A stretch of 64,000 nt of DNA, from assembly GCA_018267825.1 (NCBI GenBank), contig JAFDXR010000003.1:587444-651443 (forward strand). The letters run 5' to 3'. The position numbers were made by a program, and so were the translations under genes. Source of the DNA: Bacteroidota bacterium. GTDB lineage: Bacteria > Bacteroidota > Bacteroidia > B-17B0 > Aurantibacillaceae. Below are positions 7,826-20,783 of this stretch, piece by piece (the stretch's first letter is position 1; every line of letters starts with the position of its first letter). The notes beneath the pieces are model-generated. The model ran no database searches, was not told the DNA's origin, and saw only the letters and a program-made list of their open reading frames with translations.

Positions 7826-8581
7826 CTAAATCAGCTCGATGCCAATTTTTGCCAGCAGGTCCTGTTTATATGCCCTGGAAACAGGCACCTGAAGACCTGT
7901 CCGCATCACCAATGTACCACCATCGCCTTTCACATATTTTTCGGCCTGCGACAAGTTAACAATATAGGAATTATGGACTCGCATAAACTGAAGTCCTTCG
8001 ATCATCTTCTCAAATGTCTTGAGAGTCTTTGAGATCAATATCCGTTTCCTGGTTTCGAGATAAACATACGTATAATTTGAGTCGGCCTCGAAGCTTACCA
8101 CTTCATTTGAATTTACAATAAAGATTCCCTCACTTGTAGGCAGCATCAATTTTCGTGGCTGAACCTCCTTCCACTGTGCCATCATCCGTTGCATATCCTC
8201 TGAAGCGTGTCCTGACAGTTTGGCCAATCGCTTCTCTGCTTTGGCAACCGCGGCAACCAATTCCTCAATTTCAATAGGTTTCAGGAGGTAATCTACTGCT
8301 TCTACTTTAATGGCATGAATAGCATAATGATTATATGCCGTTGTAAATATCACTTCATAATCGTATTCCGGCAGTTTCTCGATCAATTGAAAGCCATTAC
8401 CAAAAGGCATCTCAATATCCAGGAATAAAAGCTGAGGTCTGAGGGAATCGACAGCTACCCTGGCTTCTTCAATACCCTCATATATCCCCAGAATATCTAC
8501 CTGGGGGCAATACCTACGGATAAGGATTTCAAGTGTTTTGGCACCTTTGAGTTCGTCATCGACAATAATTGCTGTTATCAT
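7826..8581 (-). CDS. LytTR-family response regulator
   Basis: This 251-residue protein has an N-terminal receiver domain (about 1-120) with acidic pocket Asp8-Asp9, phospho-acceptor Asp55 in LLFLDIEMP, a conserved Thr in FTTAYN and Lys in LLKP. A LytTR DNA-binding domain covers about 145-250, recognised by the run FEADSNYTYVYL, the FMRVHNSYIVNL motif and VPVSRAYK. Such regulators bind paired direct repeats upstream of targets. The gene overlaps the histidine kinase by 4 nt, so the two form one operon. The operon is divergent from the lanthipeptide locus, which makes that locus a plausible, unproven target. Confidence 0.93.
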   Translation of the reverse strand: MITAIIVDDELKGAKTLEILIRRYCPQVDILGIYEGIEEARVAVDSLRPQLLFLDIEMPFGNGFQLIEKLPEYDYEVIFTTAYNHYAIHAIKVEAVDYLLKPIEIEELVAAVAKAEKRLAKLSGHASEDMQRMMAQWKEVQPRKLMLPTSEGIFIVNSNEVVSFEADSNYTYVYLETRKRILISKTLKTFEKMIEGLQFMRVHNSYIVNLSQAEKYVKGDGGTLVMRTGLQVPVSRAYKQDLLAKIGIELI

Positions 8582-11562
8582 TTTTTGAAATTTATTTTGG
8601 GAATTACTATTTCTACGCGGGTACCAAGCGCTTCGCCGGCCGCATCTCTCTTATCAACAATGGTAACCTTCTGTTTGTTCTGAAACAAATGTCCAATAAT
8701 CTCCAGCCTGTCGATATTTAAAGACAGTGCCATTGAATGATGTTTCCTGAAATGTTGTTCCTTAATTTTCTCAGACATTTTGCGTCCCACACCATTGTCA
8801 TCAATCACACAAAGAATATAATTGCCTCCATCAATAAATGAAAGGGCAAGGTGACCTACATCCCGTTTGTGCATGAGACCATGCCAGATCGCATTTTCAA
8901 CATATGGCTGTATCAGTAAGGGCGAAATACCATAGGACAATACATCGATGGCCGGATCAATATATATAGTGTGTGTAAACCGGGTTTCAAATCTTAATTT
9001 TTCGAGTTCAATATACAATTCAATTGTTTCAATTTCTTTTTGGAGCGGGATAATTTCATGCCTGGAATTTTCGAGTACATTCCTGATCAATTTTGAAAAC
9101 TTAGACAGGTACCTGTATGCCGATTCCGAATCGTTGGTGAGAACATAATGTTGTATGGAATTGATCGCATTGAATATGAAATGAGGATTCATCTGAGCTC
9201 TGATAGCCTTCAGTTCTATCCTTGCTATCTTTTTCTCCATTTCCGTTTTCTCCCGCTCTTTCTGTTGAAACTGATGTATACGGGTTCTGAGAATGCCATA
9301 AATTGTACCGGTCAGTACAATAGCAAGCCCGAGTATAAACCACCATGCACGCCAGAATGGTTGCCTGATTGTAAAAAGTATTCGTGCCGGTTCGGCACTG
9401 TTTACCATATCGCTATTGATGGCGTACACAAGAAATGTATAATCACCCGGTGGCAAAGTGGTGTACTGTACTGTTTGGTTACTTGTAAAATGCCAGGTCG
9501 TATCCAGTCCCGCAAGGCGGTACTTATACAGCATTTTGCCAGGACTTTTATAAGATAATCCGATGTATTCGAAACGTATAAAATTCTCATCGTGCATCAG
9601 GACATGTTTCCCCTTAAGAGGATGTATTTTTTCGTTTACAACAAAGGAGGTCAGATAAACAGGTGGTTGTACCTTATCCAATTTAAGATGCACTCTGTCA
9701 AATACAGCCACGCCCCTATTTGAGGCAACATAGAGTTCATTGTTTAAAATACACATATCATTAATTTCATCCGACAACAAGCCATCTGTACTGCTGTAAT
9801 TTTCGATTGAGAATTGATCATTGCCCGACAACGTGATTTTACTTATTCCATGGTTCGTGCCAACCCACACTGTTTTATCTCCATCTATTAAAACGGTTTT
9901 ACAAAGATTACTGGCCAGTCCATCCTTTGTCTGAATTCTCTGAAGGCGACTCCCTTTTTTTATAATAAGGCCTGCCCCTTTGGTAGCCATCCAGATCCAG
10001 TGCCGCTTATCTTCTTTTATATCATCAATCCTATTATAAAGAAGCGGATTGTGGCGCCCAAGCGTATCTGATATTCCCGCGAAATTTAAAATAAGTCCCT
10101 GCGGAAGTCCAATCCATATGGAATCTCCTTTGACATAAAGAGAGCTCGCCCGTCTGAATGGCGGTCCCATTGGGACTAAGCGTGCGTTTTTGACATCTAC
10201 TTTTGATAATCCAAGTGAATAGAGGGCATAAATTTCATTTTTTTCTGATACAATCAATTTCCTGATGTATACATCTGATGCCACACCTTTATTAATAACT
10301 TTCAAAAAGCGTCGCTCACCGCTTTCAGCGTCATAGCAGTAGGATTTATTATCCGTTATAATCAGAATATTTCCTCTCTCACCAAATACTGTAGCCTTGA
10401 CTCCATTTAGAAATCTATTCTGTCTGACACCATGCTGTTTGCTGATGCTATTCATGATCCGATTCTCCGTGAAGCATAATATGCTATCATGAAATGGTGT
10501 TATAGAATAAACCTTTTCTCCGGATAATCCTGTAGCCGCATTATAATATCCAAATGAAAGGGACGGAGTATAAAACACACCATGGTTCAAGGTTGTAAAC
10601 CAATAACCGCCTTCCCGATCCTGGCAGACAGAACTAACAGAACTGTTTTCCAGATAATGAACCGGTGCTTTACTCAGGTCTCCCCTGGGGAATACGGAAA
10701 CCCCCTTTCCGGTAGTTCCAAGCCATATATTCTGATCTTTATCGGCATACAAACTAATCAGATCGGCATCATAAAAAAGAAATGATAATTTTTCGTTTTC
10801 CAATTGATACACATTTCCACCATCAAAAAACAAGATTCTGTTCCCTGCCGGAATAGCCTGTCTGAATTGCTCTCCAAGGTTTGAAGTATAGCTCTCCAAC
10901 TCCGCTCTCCGGAAGGTACGGCCAAGTATCAGATGCCTGCTGGTCCTCAATTTCATGCCATCAGGGCCCACTTTATCTTCATTACCATCATATTTTAGCA
11001 ATCCCCTGCCTGTAACTCCCCAAACCCATTCCTTTGGTTTGGGTGACCAGAATTGCCAACCGGTTTCATTAAAAATGATCGGAATCACATTCTTATAATT
11101 ATTCGCGGGAGGCACTTTATAAAATGCATCGCCAAAGTTGTAAGCCACAAACAAAGTATCAGCATCATCGACATATATTGATGTAATGACACTGGAATGA
11201 ATACTATTGCTCAGTACATTGTTTCCTTCGATACTGACAATGGTATCGGAATCAGGGTCATAATACGCCAATTTGCGGGCCATTCCAAAAAACCAGATTC
11301 GCTGCCGGTGATCTTCATATATGTTGAAAATTGTATTGTCCGGCAATCCGTGTTCACTCGTAAACTGTCTGAACGAATACCCGTCATAACGGCATACACC
11401 GGCATCTGTACAAAACCACATATATCCCTTGGAATCCTGAATAGCTTTATACACTTCGGAGCTCGAAAGTCCATCACTAACCGAGTAATTGCGGAACGGT
11501 ATATTCTGTGCCCCGCAAAAAAAAGTGCACAGTAACAGGGCAGTTATTAATCTCAATATCAT
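8578..11562 (-). CDS. Two-component-propeller sensor histidine kinase (LytS/YehU-type)
   Basis: The frame is open from 11616, but the ATG at 11562 gives a signal peptide (MILRLITALLLCTFFCGAQN) and has GAGGTGA four nt upstream, so I choose it (994 residues). A periplasmic sensor with many two-component-propeller repeats (pattern I/V-x-D-x-x-G-x-I/Y-W-F/I-x-T) fills about residues 30-640. A Y_Y_Y domain follows (LYKYRLAGLDTTWHFT), then one membrane helix near 735. The cytoplasmic part has the His_kinase motif MNPHFIFNAIN with the phospho-acceptor His near 791 and an ATPase domain with VENAIWHGL and DDNGVG. The ligand is unknown; propeller kinases in this phylum often sense polysaccharides or envelope signals. 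Confidence 0.92.
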   Translation of the reverse strand: MILRLITALLLCTFFCGAQNIPFRNYSVSDGLSSSEVYKAIQDSKGYMWFCTDAGVCRYDGYSFRQFTSEHGLPDNTIFNIYEDHRQRIWFFGMARKLAYYDPDSDTIVSIEGNNVLSNSIHSSVITSIYVDDADTLFVAYNFGDAFYKVPPANNYKNVIPIIFNETGWQFWSPKPKEWVWGVTGRGLLKYDGNEDKVGPDGMKLRTSRHLILGRTFRRAELESYTSNLGEQFRQAIPAGNRILFFDGGNVYQLENEKLSFLFYDADLISLYADKDQNIWLGTTGKGVSVFPRGDLSKAPVHYLENSSVSSVCQDREGGYWFTTLNHGVFYTPSLSFGYYNAATGLSGEKVYSITPFHDSILCFTENRIMNSISKQHGVRQNRFLNGVKATVFGERGNILIITDNKSYCYDAESGERRFLKVINKGVASDVYIRKLIVSEKNEIYALYSLGLSKVDVKNARLVPMGPPFRRASSLYVKGDSIWIGLPQGLILNFAGISDTLGRHNPLLYNRIDDIKEDKRHWIWMATKGAGLIIKKGSRLQRIQTKDGLASNLCKTVLIDGDKTVWVGTNHGISKITLSGNDQFSIENYSSTDGLLSDEINDMCILNNELYVASNRGVAVFDRVHLKLDKVQPPVYLTSFVVNEKIHPLKGKHVLMHDENFIRFEYIGLSYKSPGKMLYKYRLAGLDTTWHFTSNQTVQYTTLPPGDYTFLVYAINSDMVNSAEPARILFTIRQPFWRAWWFILGLAIVLTGTIYGILRTRIHQFQQKEREKTEMEKKIARIELKAIRAQMNPHFIFNAINSIQHYVLTNDSESAYRYLSKFSKLIRNVLENSRHEIIPLQKEIETIELYIELEKLRFETRFTHTIYIDPAIDVLSYGISPLLIQPYVENAIWHGLMHKRDVGHLALSFIDGGNYILCVIDDNGVGRKMSEKIKEQHFRKHHSMALSLNIDRLEIIGHLFQNKQKVTIVDKRDAAGEALGTRVEIVIPKINFKK

Positions 11563-11710
11563 TGTCACCTCATAAAAATACAGTTTTATGGGATTGCAAT
11601 TCTGGTAACGGCTCATTCAAATCTGTGAAGTACTAATTCTGCATTTCTTTTACACACTAAATGCAACAATTTCACGTCACAGGCAGAGTGCCTTCAGATT
11701 CAAATCACCT

Positions 11711-12886
11711 ATGATTGACCAGACAGATCTAATACTGAACAAAATCATCGAGATTGAAAATGCCCTCCCTGAGAGGATGAGCGATATCGGACTTCATACA
11801 GGAGAAAGCGGGAAAGTGTTATTCTATTGTTACCTATCACACTACCTGAAAAGCAATGCGTATGACTCCAAAATCGAACATACAATCGAAAACATATTTG
11901 AGCGCCTTGACACTGACACAATCAACCCCACTTTTTGCAGGGGCTTATCCGGATTGGTCTGGACAATGAACCATTTAAGAAAAACTGGCATGCTCGAGTT
12001 CGATGATGTTTTCGCTGATCTACACGACACACTTAAGAAATCTGCTTTGGGATTATCTGCTGCCGGTGAATTTGATTTTTTACACGGCGCCGATGGCATT
12101 ATTTATACATTAATGGATAACAATGCACTGGATGAAAAATCAGCAAACGCCTGGCTTAATTCTCTATACGATTTCGCCATCAGGGATTCCCGCGGATGTG
12201 TGTGGGAAACGCTGACTGACGCATCAACCGGGAGTAAAAGCCTTAATCTGAGTTTATCACATGGCATATCCGGAAAGATTATTCTGCTCTCGGAAGTTCT
12301 GAAACGTTTTCCGGAAAACGAATTAACATACGAACTCCTGGATGGCGCAGTCAATTTCCTTCTCTCTTGTCGCAACCCGGCAGGCTTCCGATCGTGGTTT
12401 CCATCTGTGAAACAAACAGATCAACCGGGTGAGATAAGCAGACTGGCCTGGTGCTATGGAGACCTCGGAAACGCTATCTGTTTGTGGCGGGCGTCAGAAA
12501 GCCTGCAAAGAACAGACCTGAAGCAACTCGCTATTGAGCTATTGCTGAATGCCACCAAACGGAGAAATCCTGATCAGGAAAAAATTATTGACGCTGCTTT
12601 TTGCCATGGAGCATCCGGCGTCTCGCATATCTTTCGTCATTTTTACCAGAAAACCGGCATGCCTGAACTGGAACAGGCCAGCAACTATTGGATGCAAAAA
12701 ACCCTTGACTTTTCAAGTCATAAAGATGTCGCAGCCGGTTACAAGTCTTTCGATACAAGGGCTGAAATTTTCAAAAAGGAAGACAGCTTCCTGGAAGGGA
12801 ATATAGGAATTGCCATGGTGATGCTGAATCACCTCCAACCCTTCATGTCTGAAAACCATTGGAATGAGTGTTTTCTCATTCATTAA
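11711..12886 (+). CDS. lanC: LanC-like lanthionine synthetase (class I lanthipeptide cyclase)
   Basis: This 391-residue protein has the length and repeating helical motifs of LanC cyclases, which add cysteine thiols to dehydrated Ser/Thr to close (methyl)lanthionine rings. The three zinc ligands are visible: Cys248 in AWCYGD, and Cys298-His299 in FCHGASG. Further LanC signatures are LHGADG (about 125), SHGISG with His184, and the terminal EGNIGIAMV segment. It is the first gene of the lanthipeptide locus, 87 nt upstream of the precursor gene and in the same direction. The start ATG at 11711 lies 148 nt from the start of the divergent kinase. No TAnnTTTG box was found in front. Confidence 0.92.
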   Translation: MIDQTDLILNKIIEIENALPERMSDIGLHTGESGKVLFYCYLSHYLKSNAYDSKIEHTIENIFERLDTDTINPTFCRGLSGLVWTMNHLRKTGMLEFDDVFADLHDTLKKSALGLSAAGEFDFLHGADGIIYTLMDNNALDEKSANAWLNSLYDFAIRDSRGCVWETLTDASTGSKSLNLSLSHGISGKIILLSEVLKRFPENELTYELLDGAVNFLLSCRNPAGFRSWFPSVKQTDQPGEISRLAWCYGDLGNAICLWRASESLQRTDLKQLAIELLLNATKRRNPDQEKIIDAAFCHGASGVSHIFRHFYQKTGMPELEQASNYWMQKTLDFSSHKDVAAGYKSFDTRAEIFKKEDSFLEGNIGIAMVMLNHLQPFMSENHWNECFLIH

Positions 12887-12890
12887 AATA

Positions 12891-12919
12891 TTGAATATAC
12901 CAACGCGCGGGTACTATTC
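12891..12919 (+). promoter_or_regulatory. Possible promoter of the precursor gene
   Basis: TTG at 12891-12893 and TACTATTC at 12912-12919 are separated by 18 nt. The second matches TAnnTTTG at six of eight positions. If used, transcription would start around 12926, at the 5' edge of the repeated element at 12924-12952. The match is imperfect. Confidence 0.3.
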
Positions 12920-12923
12920 ACTA

Positions 12924-12952
12924 GCGGGAGCCGAAAAGCTAAAGAGTAGGCA
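12924..12952 (+). promoter_or_regulatory. Repeated upstream element, copy A (before lanA)
   Basis: This 29-nt segment recurs at 18771-18800 in front of the T9SS cargo gene. Both copies begin GCGG, then share GCCGAAAAGCTAA and AGAGTAGGCA; they differ at two adjacent bases and one inserted C (27 of 30 aligned columns identical). It ends 21 nt before the ATG of the precursor peptide. The GCC and GGC ends could pair to form a small hairpin. It may be a 5' UTR regulatory RNA or a protein-binding site; I do not recognise a known family. Confidence 0.6.
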
Positions 12953-12973
12953 ATTAAATACAAACATAACAAT

Positions 12974-13153
12974 ATGAAAAAAGTAAATTTAACAGGTAAA
13001 CTTTCTATCAAGAAAGACACTGTAGTAAAGCTTAACAACGAACAAATGAACATGATCATCGGTGGATCTATTGCCACTGGTAAATCCTGCTGTGTATACA
13101 CTACCAGCGATCCATTACATTGCAGCCCAACCGCTGCATCAGGCTGTTGTTAA
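12974..13153 (+). CDS. lanA: Lanthipeptide precursor peptide (59 residues)
   Basis: This short gene lies between lanC and lanB. The leader (1-31) contains KLSIKKDTVVKLNNEQM and ends in MIIGG, a double-glycine cleavage site (Gly30-Gly31) suited to the peptidase domain of the downstream exporter. The leader pattern resembles the class I leaders known from Bacteroidota. The predicted core (32-59) starts SIATGKSCC and ends SPTAASGCC. It holds five Cys, five Ser and four Thr, so up to five thioether rings are possible with at least four Ser/Thr left over. In core numbering Cys are 8, 9, 19, 27 and 28. No homology search was made; call rests on context, leader and core composition. Confidence 0.9.
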   Translation: MKKVNLTGKLSIKKDTVVKLNNEQMNMIIGGSIATGKSCCVYTTSDPLHCSPTAASGCC

Positions 13154-13158
13154 CATTC

Positions 13159-13197
13159 AAATCAGGGAGCGCTATTGATAGCGCTCCCTGATTTCTT
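13159..13197 (+). terminator. Strong hairpin between lanA and lanB (attenuator or RNA-processing site)
   Basis: A perfect 16-bp stem (13159-13174 with 13179-13194) encloses a TTGA loop, starting 6 nt after the lanA stop. Only a short broken T run (ATTTCTT) follows, so it probably acts as a partial terminator or as a 3' stabilising structure for lanA mRNA. Either would make precursor mRNA more abundant than lanB mRNA. Confidence 0.8.
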
Positions 13198-13280
13198 ATG
13201 CAACTATAAGCCTTATCGCAAAGAAAAATCGTAAAACACCATTCTGCAATTTGCATCAGTGACACTCATTATAAGGACAA

Positions 13281-16200
13281 ATGGAAGCAACAACAGATTC
13301 ACCAGAATTTCATCCAAAATTTATCGTCCGGACACCTGTCCTGCCTTTCTCCGATTCCATGCCGAACGACAAATCCGCCTTTTTCGAACTAACCAAACAG
13401 GATATTTTTAAAGAAGCCATATATCTGGCATCAGCCACACTATACAACGAAATGATTAAGTGGCATGAGGGTTTATTATCCGACTCCAAAAGCATTCACA
13501 AACTTACTATTTCGCTCTATAAATATTACACGCGGATGCAGAACCGGTGCACGCCGTACGGTTTGTTTGCAGGGCTCGGTTCCGGCAAATGGGCTGAGAC
13601 GAACGAAGTTACATTCAGCAATAATCCCAGGAATGCTCTGGAAAGGAAAACCAGATTAGACATGAATGTACTATGTACACTGGCACAGGAAATTGCAAAA
13701 CTCGATTGTGTCCGGAACGCGTTAAGATATTATCCCAACAACAGTCTTTATAGGATAGGGAACAATTACAGATACATAGAGCACTTCTATTTGCAAAACA
13801 GACGGTTTCACAATATCAGTAAAGTAGAGTTCTCATCATATCTCGAGGAGGTGCTGCAAGCATGCAGATCCGGACTGAAACACTCTGAAATTACAGAACT
13901 TCTTATCGGAAATGATATCAGTGAAAGTGAAGCATCATCCTTTGTAGATGAACTCATCGCCATTCAATTATTGGTTAACCATCTTGAGCCCACTTTAACC
14001 GGTCCTGACTATTTTGAAGTACTGCATACTCACTTAAAAAACATACAAGCAGAACAGCCATCAAACGAGCTCAACCGAATCCTTGATGCTTTGCATACAA
14101 CAAAAATCCTCATCAAAAAAACCGATGTTGATATATTAAACCCGATTGAAATGTATTGGAATATATTTCAACAACTCCAAGACATTCTGCCTGGCCTGAC
14201 AGAAACCAATTTATTTCAAACGGATTTGTATAAAAAATATGAATCCGCTACCCTGGATCATACTGTTCATGCCCAGCTATCCTCTACGATTCGCTTTCTC
14301 AGAAAAATTTCGCCCAAAACCACCATAAAACCACTCGATGACTTTATACATCGCTTTTACGAGCGGTATGAAGATTATGAAGTGCCTCTGCTAACGGCGC
14401 TTGATGCTGAGGCAGGCATTGGTTATCCGAATAAAAACAATCAGGGGGTTAATGATCTTATAGACGATGTTTACCCTCGCCAACATAACGAAGTCAACAC
14501 GCTCAGATGGGATGCTCTTCAGACTGCCACTTTGAAAATCCTTTGTGATGCCATACGTCAAAATAAAAAAGTGATTAACCTCAGTGAAGCAGATTTCGAA
14601 GGCATCGACTTTTCAGACGGTACTCAACCTCCTTCTTACTCTGTACTATTCAAAGTCATAGACAGATTCTCTCATAAACTGGAAATCCAGATCATCGGTG
14701 GAAGCAGCGGTCTTAATCTGATGGGACGTTTTGCCGGTGGCCATAAAGAACTGGAAAACATGGCCCTGGAAATTGCTGACTTCGAGCAGCGGCAGTTTCC
14801 TGATAAAATTCTGGCAGAAGTTGTGCATCTACCGGAAAGCAGAACCGGAAACATCCTTGCCCGACCCCGCTTCAGGAATTACGAAATACCATACCTCGCC
14901 AAAAGTTCCGTCGATACCGCTCACCAGATACATGTAGAAGATCTGACCCTTAAAATCAGGAACAATAAACTGATTCTGTTTGACAAAAGGTTAAATAAAG
15001 AAATTATACCCCGCATGGGGAACGCACACATGTTCAGTGTTAATAGCCTGCCGGTATATCATTTTCTTTGCGATTTGCAGGCTCAAAATGCCACCACCCT
15101 GTCGTTAGGCTTTAACTGGGGCATTCTGACCAATCAATTTGCTTTTCTTCCGCGGGTTGAATACAACAACACTATCCTGAGTACAGCCAAATGGCGGCTG
15201 AAGAAAGATGATCTTAAAAAACTGCAGGATAAAAAAACGGGCTTAAAAGAAAAACATCAGGCCTTCTCCGAACTCAAGATCCACTCAGGCTTGCCAGATA
15301 AGTTCCTTATCGTGGACGGTGACAATGAATTGCTGATCGACACACAAAACGATATTGCCATTGATGTGTTTATAGACACCATTAAAAACCGGGAAGAACT
15401 TACTTTGGAAGAATACCTTTTTGAAGATGAATCCGCACTTGTAAAAGATTTATCTTTCAGGAGTTATACCAATGAATGCCTGGCCGTTGTTTTGAATGGT
15501 CATGTCGAAAAATCCGAAAACATAACTCCTGTTTCAAAGTATAATAGCCAGGCTCTATTCCCGGCAGGCAGCGAATGGTTATATTACAAAATCTATTGTG
15601 GCGTAAAGACTGCCGATACGATACTGACTGAAAAAATCAAAGCTCTGACCGAGGGCTTTCTTGGCGAACGCTGTATCGATAAGTGGTTTTTTATTCGCTA
15701 CGCTGATCCGGAAACGCATCTGCGGTTCAGGCTGCATATTACTGATTTTAAAAAATACGGACACATTATACAAAGCGTGAATGAAGCCCTGCATCCACTT
15801 CTGGAACAGCACCTTGTATCAAATATACAATTAGACACCTACAAGCGAGAACTCGATCGATACGGAGACAACTCCATTCATCTTGCTGAAGACTTATTCT
15901 ATCACGATAGTGAGTTTGTCGCCGGAATGCTTAACCTGCTTGACCCGGAATCCGGCGGCATTATTCGCTGGAAAATGGCCATCCGATCCGTTGATAGTTT
16001 ACTCGAAGATTTCAATTTAACCCTTGAGCAAAAGCACAGGCTGATTGAAAATCTCAGTCAGGCATTTTTCAGGGAACATGGTGCTCAGAAAGAACTCAAG
16101 GTACTGCTTGATACAAAATTCAGAACCCTGAGACCAGATGTTGAAGACGCATTGAATAAACAACTGGACTTCGGGAAAGACTACTATCCCGCCATTGAAT

Positions 16201-16448
16201 TGCTTAATCGCAGAAGTGTGTTGAATAAACCAATCGCAGGCAAAATTCTTGACATGCAGCATCACGGTACACTCATGCTTGAATTGAATCAACTCCTGGC
16301 GAGTCTGTTGCACATGAATCTGGACCGTCTGTTTATGGGACGCAACAGAACCAATGAGTTTGTGGTTTATGATCTCTTGTCCCGCAGTTACAAAAGTTCG
16401 TTGGCCCGCATGAAGCAGCAGGAAAAGCCCATAGTTTTATGTAAGTAA
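13281..16448 (+). CDS. lanB: LanB lantibiotic dehydratase, full length
   Basis: At 1055 residues this has the size of a complete class I dehydratase. The N-terminal glutamylation domain, which uses glutamyl-tRNA to activate core Ser/Thr, shows the signature RMQNRCTPYGLFAG (Arg85-Gly98). The C-terminal elimination domain (SpaB_C type, about 760-1045) shows EWLYYKIYCG near 765 and DKWFFIRYADPETHLRFRLH near 800. Having both domains in one chain is the classical LanB arrangement, unlike the split proteins of thiopeptide loci. ATG at 13281 is preceded by AAGGAC. It is separated from the precursor gene by the 16-bp hairpin and is followed after 10 nt by the exporter gene. Confidence 0.95.
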   Translation: MEATTDSPEFHPKFIVRTPVLPFSDSMPNDKSAFFELTKQDIFKEAIYLASATLYNEMIKWHEGLLSDSKSIHKLTISLYKYYTRMQNRCTPYGLFAGLGSGKWAETNEVTFSNNPRNALERKTRLDMNVLCTLAQEIAKLDCVRNALRYYPNNSLYRIGNNYRYIEHFYLQNRRFHNISKVEFSSYLEEVLQACRSGLKHSEITELLIGNDISESEASSFVDELIAIQLLVNHLEPTLTGPDYFEVLHTHLKNIQAEQPSNELNRILDALHTTKILIKKTDVDILNPIEMYWNIFQQLQDILPGLTETNLFQTDLYKKYESATLDHTVHAQLSSTIRFLRKISPKTTIKPLDDFIHRFYERYEDYEVPLLTALDAEAGIGYPNKNNQGVNDLIDDVYPRQHNEVNTLRWDALQTATLKILCDAIRQNKKVINLSEADFEGIDFSDGTQPPSYSVLFKVIDRFSHKLEIQIIGGSSGLNLMGRFAGGHKELENMALEIADFEQRQFPDKILAEVVHLPESRTGNILARPRFRNYEIPYLAKSSVDTAHQIHVEDLTLKIRNNKLILFDKRLNKEIIPRMGNAHMFSVNSLPVYHFLCDLQAQNATTLSLGFNWGILTNQFAFLPRVEYNNTILSTAKWRLKKDDLKKLQDKKTGLKEKHQAFSELKIHSGLPDKFLIVDGDNELLIDTQNDIAIDVFIDTIKNREELTLEEYLFEDESALVKDLSFRSYTNECLAVVLNGHVEKSENITPVSKYNSQALFPAGSEWLYYKIYCGVKTADTILTEKIKALTEGFLGERCIDKWFFIRYADPETHLRFRLHITDFKKYGHIIQSVNEALHPLLEQHLVSNIQLDTYKRELDRYGDNSIHLAEDLFYHDSEFVAGMLNLLDPESGGIIRWKMAIRSVDSLLEDFNLTLEQKHRLIENLSQAFFREHGAQKELKVLLDTKFRTLRPDVEDALNKQLDFGKDYYPAIELLNRRSVLNKPIAGKILDMQHHGTLMLELNQLLASLLHMNLDRLFMGRNRTNEFVVYDLLSRSYKSSLARMKQQEKPIVLCK

Positions 16449-16458
16449 TACACACCGC

Positions 16459-18672
16459 ATGCGCAGATTTCCACATTTTATGCAAACCGATTCGATGACA
16501 TGCGGACCCGCCTGCCTGAAGATGGTTGCAAAATATTACGGAAAAAATTACAGCCTGGATGATCTGGTAAGACTTAGCAGAACAGATCGTTCCGGGAGCA
16601 GTCTGCTCGGACTTTGCAACGCTGCAGAAAACCTGGGTTTCCGCGCAAGTGGCGCCAAAATTACATTCTCAGGTCTGACTACTTCCGTAAAACTGCCCTG
16701 TATCATTCACTGGAACAACAGTCATTTTGTTGTTGTATACAAAATAGACAAAAAATTCATTCATGTCTCAGATCCCTCCCATGGCCAGTTGAAATACACG
16801 CACGATGAATTTACCAAAAGCTGGCTGGACGAAGAGCAGGGAGCGGGCATTTCACTGATACTGGAAACAACACCGGAGTTCTATCAAAACAATCCGAAAA
16901 GCAATGACGAAACCCGGAAAAAAGGTTTTCCCTTTCTATTCGGATATCTTCTAAAGCACAAAAAGCCGATCATACAAGTACTTCTGGGGCTTCTGTTGGG
17001 AAGCATACTGCAACTGATCTTTCCATTCCTCACACAAAACATTATCGACAAAGGGATCAGGAACAAAGACATTGGTTTCATTTATCTGATCCTGTTCGCA
17101 CAGCTGATGGTCTTTTCCGGACGGACAACGATTGAAGTCATCCGCAGCTACATCCTCATGCGTGTAAGCAACGACATCAACATCAACCTGGCACGTGATT
17201 TCTTCTCCAAACTGATGAGATTACCTATTCGTTATTTCGACACAAAGATGACTGGTGATATCATGCAGCGTATAGATGATAATCACCGGATAGAGAACTT
17301 TCTGACCGGGTCATCACTTAACACGTTGTTCTCCATGCTCAGTTTCATTGTATTCAGCATCGTTCTTGCCTGGTATAGTTTTCTCATATTTGCCGTCTTC
17401 TTTATCGGCACATTGTGCTATTTTCTGTGGATTCTCTTCTTCATGAAACGTCGGGCCGACCTGGATTACAAACGATTCAACCAGAGCAGCATCAATCAAA
17501 GCAAGATCCTGGAACTAATTAACGGTATGCAGGAAATCAAACTACACAATGCCGAAACACAAAAACGCAGACAATGGGAAGTGGTGCAAACCAGGCTTTT
17601 TGAGATCACTCTGAAAAGCTTATCACTCAGCAATGTACAAAATACCGGATCCTCCTTGATCAATGAGCTAAAAAACATTATCATCACTTTCATTGCAGCC
17701 AGACTTGTCCTGGATAATCACATAACACTCGGCATGATGCTTTCTGTAAGTTACATCACCGGACAGCTTAACTCTCCCGTTCTGGAAATGGTTAATTTCA
17801 TACAACGCTGGCAGGATGCAAAACTCAGCCTGGAACGGCTCAATGAAATTCATCAAAAAGAAGAAGAAGACGCCCCCTCAAAATCACTACTGGCAGAAAT
17901 ACCTGAGGACCTATCCCTTCATTTTGAAGGTGTTTCCTTCAGCTATGGCGGGGCTGCAAACCAGGTGGTACTGGAAGACATATCAGTACAATTCCCGGCG
18001 CACAAAGTTACAGCTATTGTCGGAAGCAGTGGCAGCGGCAAAAGTACGCTGATGAAACTTTTGCTGCAGTTTTATGCGCCAACCAGCGGTGACATATTTT
18101 TAAGTTCCGATTCCGGCGAAAAAAAAACGCACATAAATCTCAGTCAGGTCCAGCCACACAGCTGGCGTGCAAAAACAGGTGTTGTTTTACAGGAAGGCTA
18201 CATCTTCAATGATACAATAGCAGGTAACATTGCCGTAGGCGAAGAAACAATCGACTATGCAAAATTGGAACAAGCCCTCCGGATTGCCAACATCCATGAA
18301 TTTATCAAAAGCCTTCCTCATGGCTATAACACCCGGATTGGCCTGGAGGGCAATGGCATCAGTACCGGTCAGAAACAGCGCATCCTGATTGCCCGGGCGG
18401 TATATAAAAACCCGCAGTACCTGTTTTTTGATGAGGCCACCAGCGCTTTGGATGCAAACAACGAAAAAATAATCATGAACAACTTAAATCAATTTTATAA
18501 AAACAAGACCGTCATTGTTATAGCTCATCGATTGAGCACCGTGAAAAATGCCGATCAGATTATTGTTCTCGACAAAGGCAAAATTATTGAGAGAGGAAAT
18601 CATAAAGAACTCTCCGCAATCAAGGGTGCTTACTACGAGCTTGTGAAAAATCAGCTGGAACTCGGCAGTTGA
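16459..18672 (+). CDS. lanT: Peptidase-containing ABC transporter (C39 peptidase, lanthipeptide exporter)
   Basis: This 737-residue protein has three parts. The N-terminal C39 peptidase (1-130) has the oxyanion Gln9, catalytic Cys15 in SMTCGPACL, His89 in NNSHFVVVY and Asp105 in VSDPSHG, all intact, so it should cut the double-glycine leader. A six-helix membrane domain covers about 160-440. The nucleotide-binding domain has Walker A GSSGSGKST near 522, signature ISTGQKQR in place of the usual LSGGQ, and Walker B YLFFDEATSALD. It would cleave and export the modified peptide across the inner membrane. No outer-membrane or adaptor gene lies beside it. Confidence 0.94.
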   Translation: MRRFPHFMQTDSMTCGPACLKMVAKYYGKNYSLDDLVRLSRTDRSGSSLLGLCNAAENLGFRASGAKITFSGLTTSVKLPCIIHWNNSHFVVVYKIDKKFIHVSDPSHGQLKYTHDEFTKSWLDEEQGAGISLILETTPEFYQNNPKSNDETRKKGFPFLFGYLLKHKKPIIQVLLGLLLGSILQLIFPFLTQNIIDKGIRNKDIGFIYLILFAQLMVFSGRTTIEVIRSYILMRVSNDININLARDFFSKLMRLPIRYFDTKMTGDIMQRIDDNHRIENFLTGSSLNTLFSMLSFIVFSIVLAWYSFLIFAVFFIGTLCYFLWILFFMKRRADLDYKRFNQSSINQSKILELINGMQEIKLHNAETQKRRQWEVVQTRLFEITLKSLSLSNVQNTGSSLINELKNIIITFIAARLVLDNHITLGMMLSVSYITGQLNSPVLEMVNFIQRWQDAKLSLERLNEIHQKEEEDAPSKSLLAEIPEDLSLHFEGVSFSYGGAANQVVLEDISVQFPAHKVTAIVGSSGSGKSTLMKLLLQFYAPTSGDIFLSSDSGEKKTHINLSQVQPHSWRAKTGVVLQEGYIFNDTIAGNIAVGEETIDYAKLEQALRIANIHEFIKSLPHGYNTRIGLEGNGISTGQKQRILIARAVYKNPQYLFFDEATSALDANNEKIIMNNLNQFYKNKTVIVIAHRLSTVKNADQIIVLDKGKIIERGNHKELSAIKGAYYELVKNQLELGS

Positions 18673-18770
18673 AATAGGCTGAATCTGTTAATCACTAATT
18701 TAAAAATGTGAACTACTCAGATTGTATTTTCTCTGTTCTGAAAATCCGACACATTTGGCGCCACAAACAA

Positions 18771-18800
18771 GCGGTCGCCGAAAAGCTAACAGAGTAGGCA
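18771..18800 (+). promoter_or_regulatory. Repeated upstream element, copy B (before T9SS cargo gene)
   Basis: This 30-nt segment is the second copy of the element in front of lanA (12924-12952). It ends 18 nt before the ATG at 18819. A box CACATTTG (one mismatch to TAnnTTTG) lies at 18750-18757, so the element would be at the start of the transcript, as in copy A. Confidence 0.6.
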
Positions 18801-18818
18801 CATTAATCACATAAACCA

Positions 18819-20783
18819 ATGAAAAATTTAAAAACGATCCTCGGAGCTTCAATGCTTATGATGTGTGTCGGGCACAGTGCCTTTTCGCAACGCACCATCT
18901 CAGGACAGATTACTTTAAACCCATGTATCTTCCCTATGGACCAGGACGATTTCAGCAACGCAACGCCATGGAGCCAGATAGACCCAATTACTACGGGAAA
19001 TGGGCGCATTATTGTAAACACAACACAAAACAACATTCTCATCACTCCTAACGAAGCAAGCGGAAGCGGCTGTATGGCACCCGGCCAGGCAGGTGCCTGC
19101 AGTAACCGTGAAATGCGCATTTACAGACCCCTGACTGGAACTGTAAGCAACACTTCATGGAGAACTGAATTCGTGATTAATATCTCAACAGGAAACGCAC
19201 CGAATTACGGCCTTATTGGATTAACATCCGGAACACAAGACCCTGAAGGAAATTACTCACCCTCTTCAGCTTGGGCATGTAACAGCGGCTCAGCAAATAG
19301 TGGTGTTTGGTCGGCAACCTCACAGGATGGTATTTTTGCATCACTTGTGGCGTTTGGCACAAACCAGATTCCAAACAGTTTTAGCTCGCAGCCTTTCACA
19401 CCGGCTAATCAAACCGCGGCAGCCAATGCCACCTCAACCAGTGGCTGGTGTATATACGGTCATGCAAAAAAAGCCGGCGGAAGTTTTTATCCGGCAAGCT
19501 CTCCGTTCAACTCCTCACAGTTAAACTGGTCATGGGGCATTCCATTGCCTGCTTTAAAGACAAACTATTTCATCCGTCTGGAACGCCTCAGTGCCAACAC
19601 ATGTATGATCAGCGTATTTTCGGATGCAGCAAGAACAATCCATATTCCTATGTCGCCGCAATGCTTCCAGATCGATCCGAATATTCAGGGATTAAGCAAC
19701 GTACAGAGCTTTCAGCATCAAAGCGGATCGTTTATGAGAAGTTTAACAGGTGTTATCAGTGACCTGAATATATTCAATAACTGTCCGGGAATTCCAACCC
19801 TCACACTCACTGCATCAAGCCCCTCGGTGACATGTTCGGCAAACACCGTAACGCTTACTGCTACCCCTGGCTTTTCAACATACACATGGAATCCGGGAAA
19901 CATAACCACCACAAGCAATACATTGGCCGTAAGTCCGGGTTCTACAACCCAATACTCTGTAACAGCCGTGTATAATGCTGTTGCCTATCCATGCTTTCAT
20001 CCAACAGCTTCCGTTCAGGTTGGCGGCATGCCAAATTACCTGACGTTCAGTCCACTCTTTGCCATTACTTCAGGCTTACCTCCGGCCAGCCAGTCGTTCA
20101 GTGTAGAAGTAACACCAGTGGCAGGATCAACAAATCTGGACATATCAACAGCACGCACCAACACCGGTTATAACTATGGATACCTCTGGAAAGTAGAAAC
20201 ACTTGATCCGGCAAACAACAACAATGTGTTATGCTCAGTAATCAACCCATCGAACTGGTGGAACAACGCTTCAACAAATGATTTCCCGGGCTATAGCAGT
20301 AACTCAAGTGGCGGTTGCTCTGACAACACCTCCATCACAACGGGCGCAGGAGTATTCGATATTTCACATAAATATCGCATTACCCGTGGGGTATGGAACC
20401 CATGCGCTTACACAGAAGCTACGGTGGCTGTGTCATACTGTACCAATTGCAGAACATCTAACGGCGGACCATCCCTTGTCATTGAGCAGGGTCCGGTAAC
20501 CCGGTCAGAAAGAGTTCCTGTAACGGAAGTAAGTCCACAAAAAACACAAAGCACTGTTATGATTGCCCCTAATCCAAATAATGGTGAATTCAATATCCTG
20601 GTAGAAAACAACCGCACAGAATACACTTACGAAGTTTACGACAGCTATGGTGCATTGCTGCTGCAAAACACCAGTGCCGAGGAGAAACAAGCCGTTTCTA
20701 TCCACGATAGTAAGCCTGGCGTATACATCCTCAAAGTTAACCTCGCCGGAGAAGTTTACATCAAACGGGTCATCAAAGAATAA
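18819..20783 (+). CDS. Secreted protein with T9SS type A sorting domain
   Basis: This 654-residue protein begins with a signal peptide (MKNLKTILGASMLMMCVGHS then AFSQ). Residues about 25-310 form an uncharacterised Asn/Ser/Thr-rich domain with several cysteines. An Ig/PKD-like module covers about 325-405 (TLTASSPSVTCSANTVTL). The end, from MIAPNPNNGEF to the last residues, is a T9SS type A sorting domain, so the protein should be exported across the outer membrane and attached or released. It follows the lanthipeptide locus after 146 nt and shares the lanA upstream element. No protease or immunity motif is visible; its link to the peptide is inferred from the shared element only. Confidence 0.85.
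   Translation: MKNLKTILGASMLMMCVGHSAFSQRTISGQITLNPCIFPMDQDDFSNATPWSQIDPITTGNGRIIVNTTQNNILITPNEASGSGCMAPGQAGACSNREMRIYRPLTGTVSNTSWRTEFVINISTGNAPNYGLIGLTSGTQDPEGNYSPSSAWACNSGSANSGVWSATSQDGIFASLVAFGTNQIPNSFSSQPFTPANQTAAANATSTSGWCIYGHAKKAGGSFYPASSPFNSSQLNWSWGIPLPALKTNYFIRLERLSANTCMISVFSDAARTIHIPMSPQCFQIDPNIQGLSNVQSFQHQSGSFMRSLTGVISDLNIFNNCPGIPTLTLTASSPSVTCSANTVTLTATPGFSTYTWNPGNITTTSNTLAVSPGSTTQYSVTAVYNAVAYPCFHPTASVQVGGMPNYLTFSPLFAITSGLPPASQSFSVEVTPVAGSTNLDISTARTNTGYNYGYLWKVETLDPANNNNVLCSVINPSNWWNNASTNDFPGYSSNSSGGCSDNTSITTGAGVFDISHKYRITRGVWNPCAYTEATVAVSYCTNCRTSNGGPSLVIEQGPVTRSERVPVTEVSPQKTQSTVMIAPNPNNGEFNILVENNRTEYTYEVYDSYGALLLQNTSAEEKQAVSIHDSKPGVYILKVNLAGEVYIKRVIKE

Follow-up and report, generated by a model that had tools for sequence, protein, structure and literature searches.

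Class I lanthipeptides of Bacteroidetes are a described group. According to a paper published in 2020, their precursors carry an LxLxKx5L leader motif instead of FxLD, many of the leaders end in Gly-Gly, a C39 protease is often clustered with them, and Bacteroidetes supply almost one quarter of the class I LanC proteins (PMC7268733). A 2025 review counts PedA15.2, from Pedobacter lusitanus, among the class I lanthipeptides (PMC12328550), and a further paper reports that LanB is missing from the order Bacteroidales, the genomes with LanB belonging mostly to other orders (PMC10352776). The locus considered here occupies positions 11711-18672 of a stretch of 64,000 nucleotides from a Bacteroidota genome (assembly GCA_018267825.1, contig JAFDXR010000003.1, positions 587,444 to 651,443); the whole stretch is called the window below. 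From its sequence, it is predicted with high confidence to encode a class I lanthipeptide pathway that belongs to the Gly-Gly/C39 type of Bacteroidota. A preliminary description of this DNA had presented pinensins as the known Bacteroidota case, a view that proves too narrow in the light of PedA15.2 (PMC12328550) and of the share of Bacteroidetes among class I LanCs (PMC7268733).

The locus consists of four genes, ordered LanC-LanA-LanB-LanT, all on the + strand and all with open, full-length frames. It lies in the interior of a contig of 651,443 bases, in a genome of 4,823,045 bases whose completeness is rated 100%. A T9SS sorting domain encoded nearby, the leader family and the relatives all suggest Bacteroidota as the source. 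Because PMC7268733 already describes such Bacteroidetes precursors, the locus is counted as a known type; its class is published, and it is an ordinary addition to the described Bacteroidota clusters. What is new is the sequence of the core peptide. Two features are the least expected: a known but unexplained RNA element stands upstream of LanA, and the exporter gene lacks the neighbouring adaptor gene that most of the relatives examined have.

Precursor and modification enzymes

The precursor LanA is encoded by a frame of 59 codons between LanC and LanB (12974..13153, + strand). It matches the NCBIfam leader model NF038153 (lant_leader_L1a) over residues 1-31 with 40.2 bits, the cut-off being 22, and it is the sole match above this cut-off in the genome. 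The Pfam scan gave no match for it, and a protein database places it under PF28317. The predicted precursor is composed of a 31-residue leader, KLSIKKDTVVKL, which ends in Gly-Gly (GG31) and fits the LxLxKx5L pattern as L10-x-I12-x-K14-x5-L20, with Ile replacing the second Leu, and of a 28-residue core, SIATGKSCCVYTTSDPLHCSPTAASGCC, which contains five Cys and nine Ser/Thr residues. The calculated monoisotopic mass of the core is 2762.148 Da without modification and would be 2672.095 to 2600.053 Da after five to nine dehydrations. An FNLD-type box is absent from the leader, whose 31 residues include no Phe, and the nisin lipid II motif SxxxCTP(G/S)C has no match in the core. The peptide had been expected to differ from nisin, and on both of these motifs it does; such a leader is not unusual, however, since it belongs to the Gly-Gly/C39 type published for Bacteroidetes, and the missing FNLD box and LanP therefore need no new explanation (PMC7268733). 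The precursor gene had also been called unlisted. It stands as a real gene, but as the public model NF038153 recognises it, it can be unlisted at most in an annotation.

Conservation of the frame beside LanB and LanC was looked for in relatives and found. Among 14 relative loci (L numbers; G numbers denote genomes) chosen through LanB alone, a strict pattern finds a precursor-like frame in eight, of which the one in L030 is doubtful, being the tail of a 296-aa frame with a leader match of 20.0 bits, under the cut-off. A looser pattern adds precursor-like frames in L031 and L035. The remaining four loci are L016, L029 and L036, where the contig stops short, and L010, whose LanB is split. The leader model scores above its cut-off in 22 of 395 genomes drawn from the class, this genome included, and 20 further stretches were taken around leader-model matches. 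Nine compared precursors share 14-24 of the 31 leader positions with the window precursor and differ from it in their cores. The closest relative among proteins, P0002 (a 'natural product precursor' by its source's naming), shows 60% identity over 75% of the length and is identical at 24 of the 31 leader positions, its core again being different. One relative genome (G111, locus L071) has 19 matches to the L1a leader; many of them, with short cores, are gathered in a single 12-kb contig, in which two LanCs are also found.

The lanthionine cyclase LanC (11711..12886, + strand, 391 aa) matches LANC_like (PF05147) with 128.5 bits. Its zinc ligands C248, C298 and H299 are conserved in ten of ten aligned LanCs, that of the window included, and its structure matches comprise 8byk (E 2e-10) and NisC, 2g02 (E 0.00037). 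LanB (13281..16448, + strand), the only LanB match in a profile search of the genome, is a full-length dehydratase of 1055 aa that carries both the glutamylation domain Lant_dehydr_N (PF04738, 457.8 bits) and the elimination domain Lant_dehydr_C (PF14028, 229.7 bits) in a single protein. Residues 14-889 align with NisB (4wd9), and a longer match, over residues 31-1029, is obtained with 9g04. In the NisB alignment, R85, R89 and T91 on the one hand and R815, R817, E857 and R860 on the other correspond to the two active sites of NisB. With the exception of T91, which is Ile in one aligned row and otherwise conserved, these residues are conserved in all aligned rows covering them, and so is H1011, which lies outside the NisB-aligned part. 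The exporter LanT (16459..18672, + strand, 737 aa) joins Peptidase_C39 (PF03412, 124.1 bits), ABC_membrane (PF00664, 108.5 bits) and ABC_tran (PF00005, 89.7 bits) in one protein and aligns over residues 7-730 with the ABC-type bacteriocin transporter 4ry2. Four of its residues, Q9, C15, H89 and D105, are conserved in five of five aligned LanTs, again counting the window, and C15, H89 and D105 form the C39 triad. Profiles and alignments agree with the gene inventory of the preliminary description, which comprised a LanC with three zinc ligands, the 59-codon precursor, a two-domain LanB and an exporter with a C39 triad on one strand. That description had also remarked on the lack of LanP and of LanFEG. 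No LanFEG-like ABC transporter appears among the 17 window proteins scanned; the missing LanP is explained by the C39 domain of the exporter.

In the proposed pathway, LanB would dehydrate Ser and Thr residues within the precursor core. Dehydration by NisB is glutamyl-tRNA-dependent, and by analogy the LanB of the window would use the same donor. LanC would form thioether rings on the five core cysteines, in a ring pattern that can only be presumed, and LanT would cleave after Gly-Gly (GG31) and then pump the ringed peptide from the cytoplasm. The predicted peptide may have a biological activity.

RNA element and hairpin at the precursor gene

The precursor gene is preceded by a match to the Rfam family RF02914 (DUF805b), which Rfam's table classes simply as Cis-reg. 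This match, at 12921..12952 (+ strand; 39.9 bits, gathering score 35.6), ends 21 nt upstream of the precursor ATG. A second one, at 18768..18800 (+ strand; 38.9 bits with the same gathering score), lies 18 nt upstream of the gene that follows LanT, which encodes a protein with a T9SS C-terminal sorting domain (the T9SS-tail protein). An Rfam scan of 33 relative loci, covering 570,738 bases and leaving out L016, gave four DUF805b matches that reach the gathering score, spread over three loci (one in L033, two in L075 and one in L078), all of them 21-28 nt before a precursor. A simple link between DUF805b and precursors is opposed by the 22 of 25 loci with a precursor frame that have no over-threshold DUF805b and by the sister family DUF805, which has two matches (L030 and L034), neither of them before a precursor. 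Upstream of its precursor L085 has the exact core sequence, at a score under the threshold, and a custom model, R1, gave weaker matches ahead of four more precursors, those of L076 (E 0.00086), L009 (0.01), L069 (0.29) and L073 (0.39). R1 is not an independent count of linkage to LanA, because six of the 13 aligned copies, the window's included, had been chosen for their position before LanA. In these 13 copies all four pairs of the four-pair stem change on both sides (reached in 4 of 500 shuffles), pairing holds in 97.6% of the cells, and covariation scores 0.615 (each of the last two values reached in 0 of 500 shuffles). Further pair types give a weaker signal (41 of 500 shuffles), and for one of the four pairs just three copies have letters.

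Within this genome, six DUF805b copies score over the Rfam threshold and eight reach E <1e-6, and in all eight an ATG stands 41-48 nt after the CCGAAAA core. The genes that follow, classed by eye with the exception of the T9SS-tail protein, are LanA, three genes for secreted-looking proteins (the T9SS-tail protein among them), an IPT-like gene and three small ones of 45-71 aa. The top-scoring copy in the genome (L097; minus strand of contig C19, 17221-17256) stands before the gene of a 66-aa peptide that contains Gly-Gly, has two Cys in its tail and may be another modified-peptide precursor. At E 1e-5, 212 of the 395 genomes drawn from the class contain a DUF805b match, so that the element is a general one and not bound to lanthipeptides. 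Out of 30 high-scoring copies, 22 were readable, the other eight having been dropped for a misplaced core, and 18 of the 22 have an ATG at 41-55 nt. Inspection by eye also placed DUF805b before small Gly-Gly peptides unlike class I lanthipeptides in L117, L132 and L143 and before a bacteriorhodopsin-looking protein in L131. The idea of a fixed promoter before DUF805b, with the RNA marking the transcription start, was rejected: no TAnnTTTG-like box stands at a constant distance in 40 upstream stretches. A search of a limited collection of papers, judged by title and the start of the abstract, found none linking DUF805b to lanthipeptide precursors.

Judged only by its position, DUF805b would regulate the gene downstream of it, and the kinds of genes that follow its copies suggest that it tunes the expression of exported proteins and peptides. 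A broader proposal, which we put forward tentatively and regard as rather unlikely as a whole, is that DUF805b is a 5′-leader switch or expression element of a Bacteroidia export regulon that includes class I precursors. Here, the lanthipeptide would be co-tuned with the T9SS protein and with other secreted or small-peptide genes, there would be no nisin-type auto-induction, and the peptide would exit without the usual adaptor. If the DUF805b link is true, an unexplained Rfam family gains testable targets and the lanthipeptides of Bacteroidota gain a candidate control element.

On its other side, directly after the stop codon, the precursor gene is bordered by a 16-bp hairpin (13159..13194, + strand) with folding z-scores of -4.2 (146 nt) and -5.4 (70 nt). 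A survey of 19 precursor loci, made with a simple home-made shuffle, found z -3.5 or lower in the 70 nt after the precursor stop in 15 of them, the window included. The hairpin is likely a terminator or attenuator that yields precursor in excess of enzyme. The precursor mRNA would likely carry DUF805b in its leader and the hairpin at its end, and this combination would give the peptide gene a stronger expression than LanB and LanT, partly uncoupled from theirs.

Gene order, export and alternative readings

The order of the genes was surveyed in 34 relative loci, which are not an independent sample because 20 of them had been picked for a leader match. LanA, LanC and LanB share a strand in 17 of the 34. 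With the addition of L031, whose precursor was found by the looser pattern, and of L068, L076 and L084, whose precursors were found by the leader model (23.8 bits in L084), the count of orders comprises 21 loci: 18 have A-C-B, and B-C-A (L080), A-B-C (L076) and B-A-C (L084) occur once each. In eight relatives an extra protein occupies the LanA-LanC or the LanC-LanB interval, namely Erythro_esteras in L028, L069 and L075, Peptidase_S41 in L030, L032, L034 and L067, and CarbopepD_reg_2 in L027; the window has none. A paper on graspetides mentions both lanthipeptide and erythromycin esterase (PMC8939145).

Ten relative loci have a LanT with a C39 domain, and eight of these, all but L068 and L076, were examined for an adaptor. 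An HlyD-type adaptor adjoins LanT in seven of the eight (L010, L034, L036, L067, L069, L075 and L025). In L034 the Pfam match of the adaptor is under Pfam's cut-off, and its 649.6 bits come from a profile built with L034 included. The eighth relative, L078, shows a frame of 214 aa that matches no Pfam family. Beside the LanT of the window an HlyD-type adaptor is absent, the next gene being that of the T9SS-tail protein. The search was extended with an adaptor profile, A2, of six rows. Two adaptors next to LanT that are themselves rows of the profile score 627 bits (G023) and 650 bits (G093). Among proteins that are not rows of it, the adaptor adjoining LanT in G044 reaches 446 bits, and G093 has two additional copies at 613 and 607 bits; G028 has no match to the profile. 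One distant adaptor used as a query had no match in the genome under study. As neither this query nor profile A2 found a comparable match there, a dedicated adaptor is, by these searches, missing from this genome.

The T9SS-tail protein (18819..20783, + strand; PF18962 41.6 bits, TIGR04183 47.4 bits) has a match in one of 59 other genomes (G012, itself without a LanB match) and none at E 1e-5 in 15 relative stretches. It was rejected as a member of the cluster, to which position and the shared RNA element are its only links, and a role in the lanthipeptide pathway is doubtful. Divergent from LanC are two genes recognised in the Pfam scan, a LytTR response regulator (7826-8581, - strand) and a large sensor kinase of the Reg_prop/Y_Y_Y histidine kinase kind (8578-11616, - strand). 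LytTR response regulators are also found directly upstream of LanA in L032 and L067. Considered as a dedicated partner of the locus, the histidine kinase has matches in seven of 59 other genomes, with 30-39% identity, and six of the seven have no LanB match. It is possible that this two-component pair regulates the locus.

Several results weigh against a lanthipeptide pathway of the published type. The C-A-B order of the window occurs in none of the 21 relatives, and the best scores of profile A2 on this genome are 35, 33.6 and 26.3 bits. No immunity gene was recognised at the locus, and the core lacks a close relative, P0002 with its different core being the single other protein at E <=0.01. 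Finally, LanC is just 25-35% identical to nine aligned relatives, as compared with up to 56% for LanB. The possibility that LanC was swapped in from elsewhere was considered and rejected: the LanCs of relatives diverge equally among themselves (23-42% identity), so fast divergence suffices to account for the low identity. L027 and L028, which come from the same genome, have 27% identity in LanC and 58% in LanB.

How far these results favour a different interpretation depends on the evidence on each side. The precursor frame is short, as would be expected if it had arisen by chance and some other gene encoded the true substrate, but its leader match stands far over the cut-off of the L1a model, the genome has no other match above that cut-off and the frame is conserved beside LanB and LanC in relatives. 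This alternative is therefore extremely improbable, and the precursor is, by all sequence comparisons made, a real gene and not a chance frame. An order absent from the 21 relatives and a missing adaptor gene would also fit a degenerate or rearranged locus, in which both would be traces of decay and peptide production would have ceased. Such decay is improbable for a locus with four uninterrupted, full-length frames and intact catalytic residues, which is internal to its contig, and whose precursor retains the leader, the GG end, the Cys-rich core, the RNA element and the hairpin. It is also conceivable, though on balance unlikely, that the enzymes work but make something other than a secreted antibiotic: for want of an encoded outer-membrane adaptor, the ringed peptide would stay in the periplasm or act as a signal. 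This would agree with the lack of an HlyD-type adaptor beside LanT and of any comparable score in a genome rated as 100% complete, given that seven of eight relatives have one, with the lack of an immunity transporter in the set of 17 proteins scanned from the window, and with the LytTR two-component pair adjoining the locus. Against it, the three weak A2 matches elsewhere in the genome might serve as adaptors, and the neighbouring pair is only a putative regulator. The preferred interpretation is still that of a class I lanthipeptide pathway whose peptide would be matured and exported by LanT.

Comparison with known systems

The nisin system resembles the window in having a full-length LanB, which aligns with NisB, and a separate LanC. 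It differs in that the window has no FNLD-type leader and no SxxxCTP(G/S)C lipid II motif, a C39 exporter replaces the separate LanP, and no LanFEG is present among the 17 proteins scanned. Pinensins are likewise class I peptides of Bacteroidetes, but their LanB is split into two proteins according to PMC7268733, whereas that of the window is one protein of 1055 aa. The PedA peptides of Pedobacter lusitanus NL19, compared here by description only, are also class I lanthipeptides from Bacteroidota, and for PedA15.2 the review names LahT150 as the Gly-Gly protease employed (PMC12328550). The closest counterpart is the Gly-Gly/C39 type of Bacteroidetes. The C-A-B-T order and the lack of an adaptor beside LanT set the window apart from the relatives examined here, a comparison that does not extend to the clusters of PMC7268733. 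With the Gly-Gly/C39 type as presented in that paper, the window shares the leader motif, the Gly-Gly end, the C39 exporter and the joint presence of LanB and LanC, and it differs in the sequence of the core. The locus provides one further predicted product, with a core to which the protein search brought up nothing closely related, in a phylum that the same paper describes as rich in such clusters (PMC7268733).

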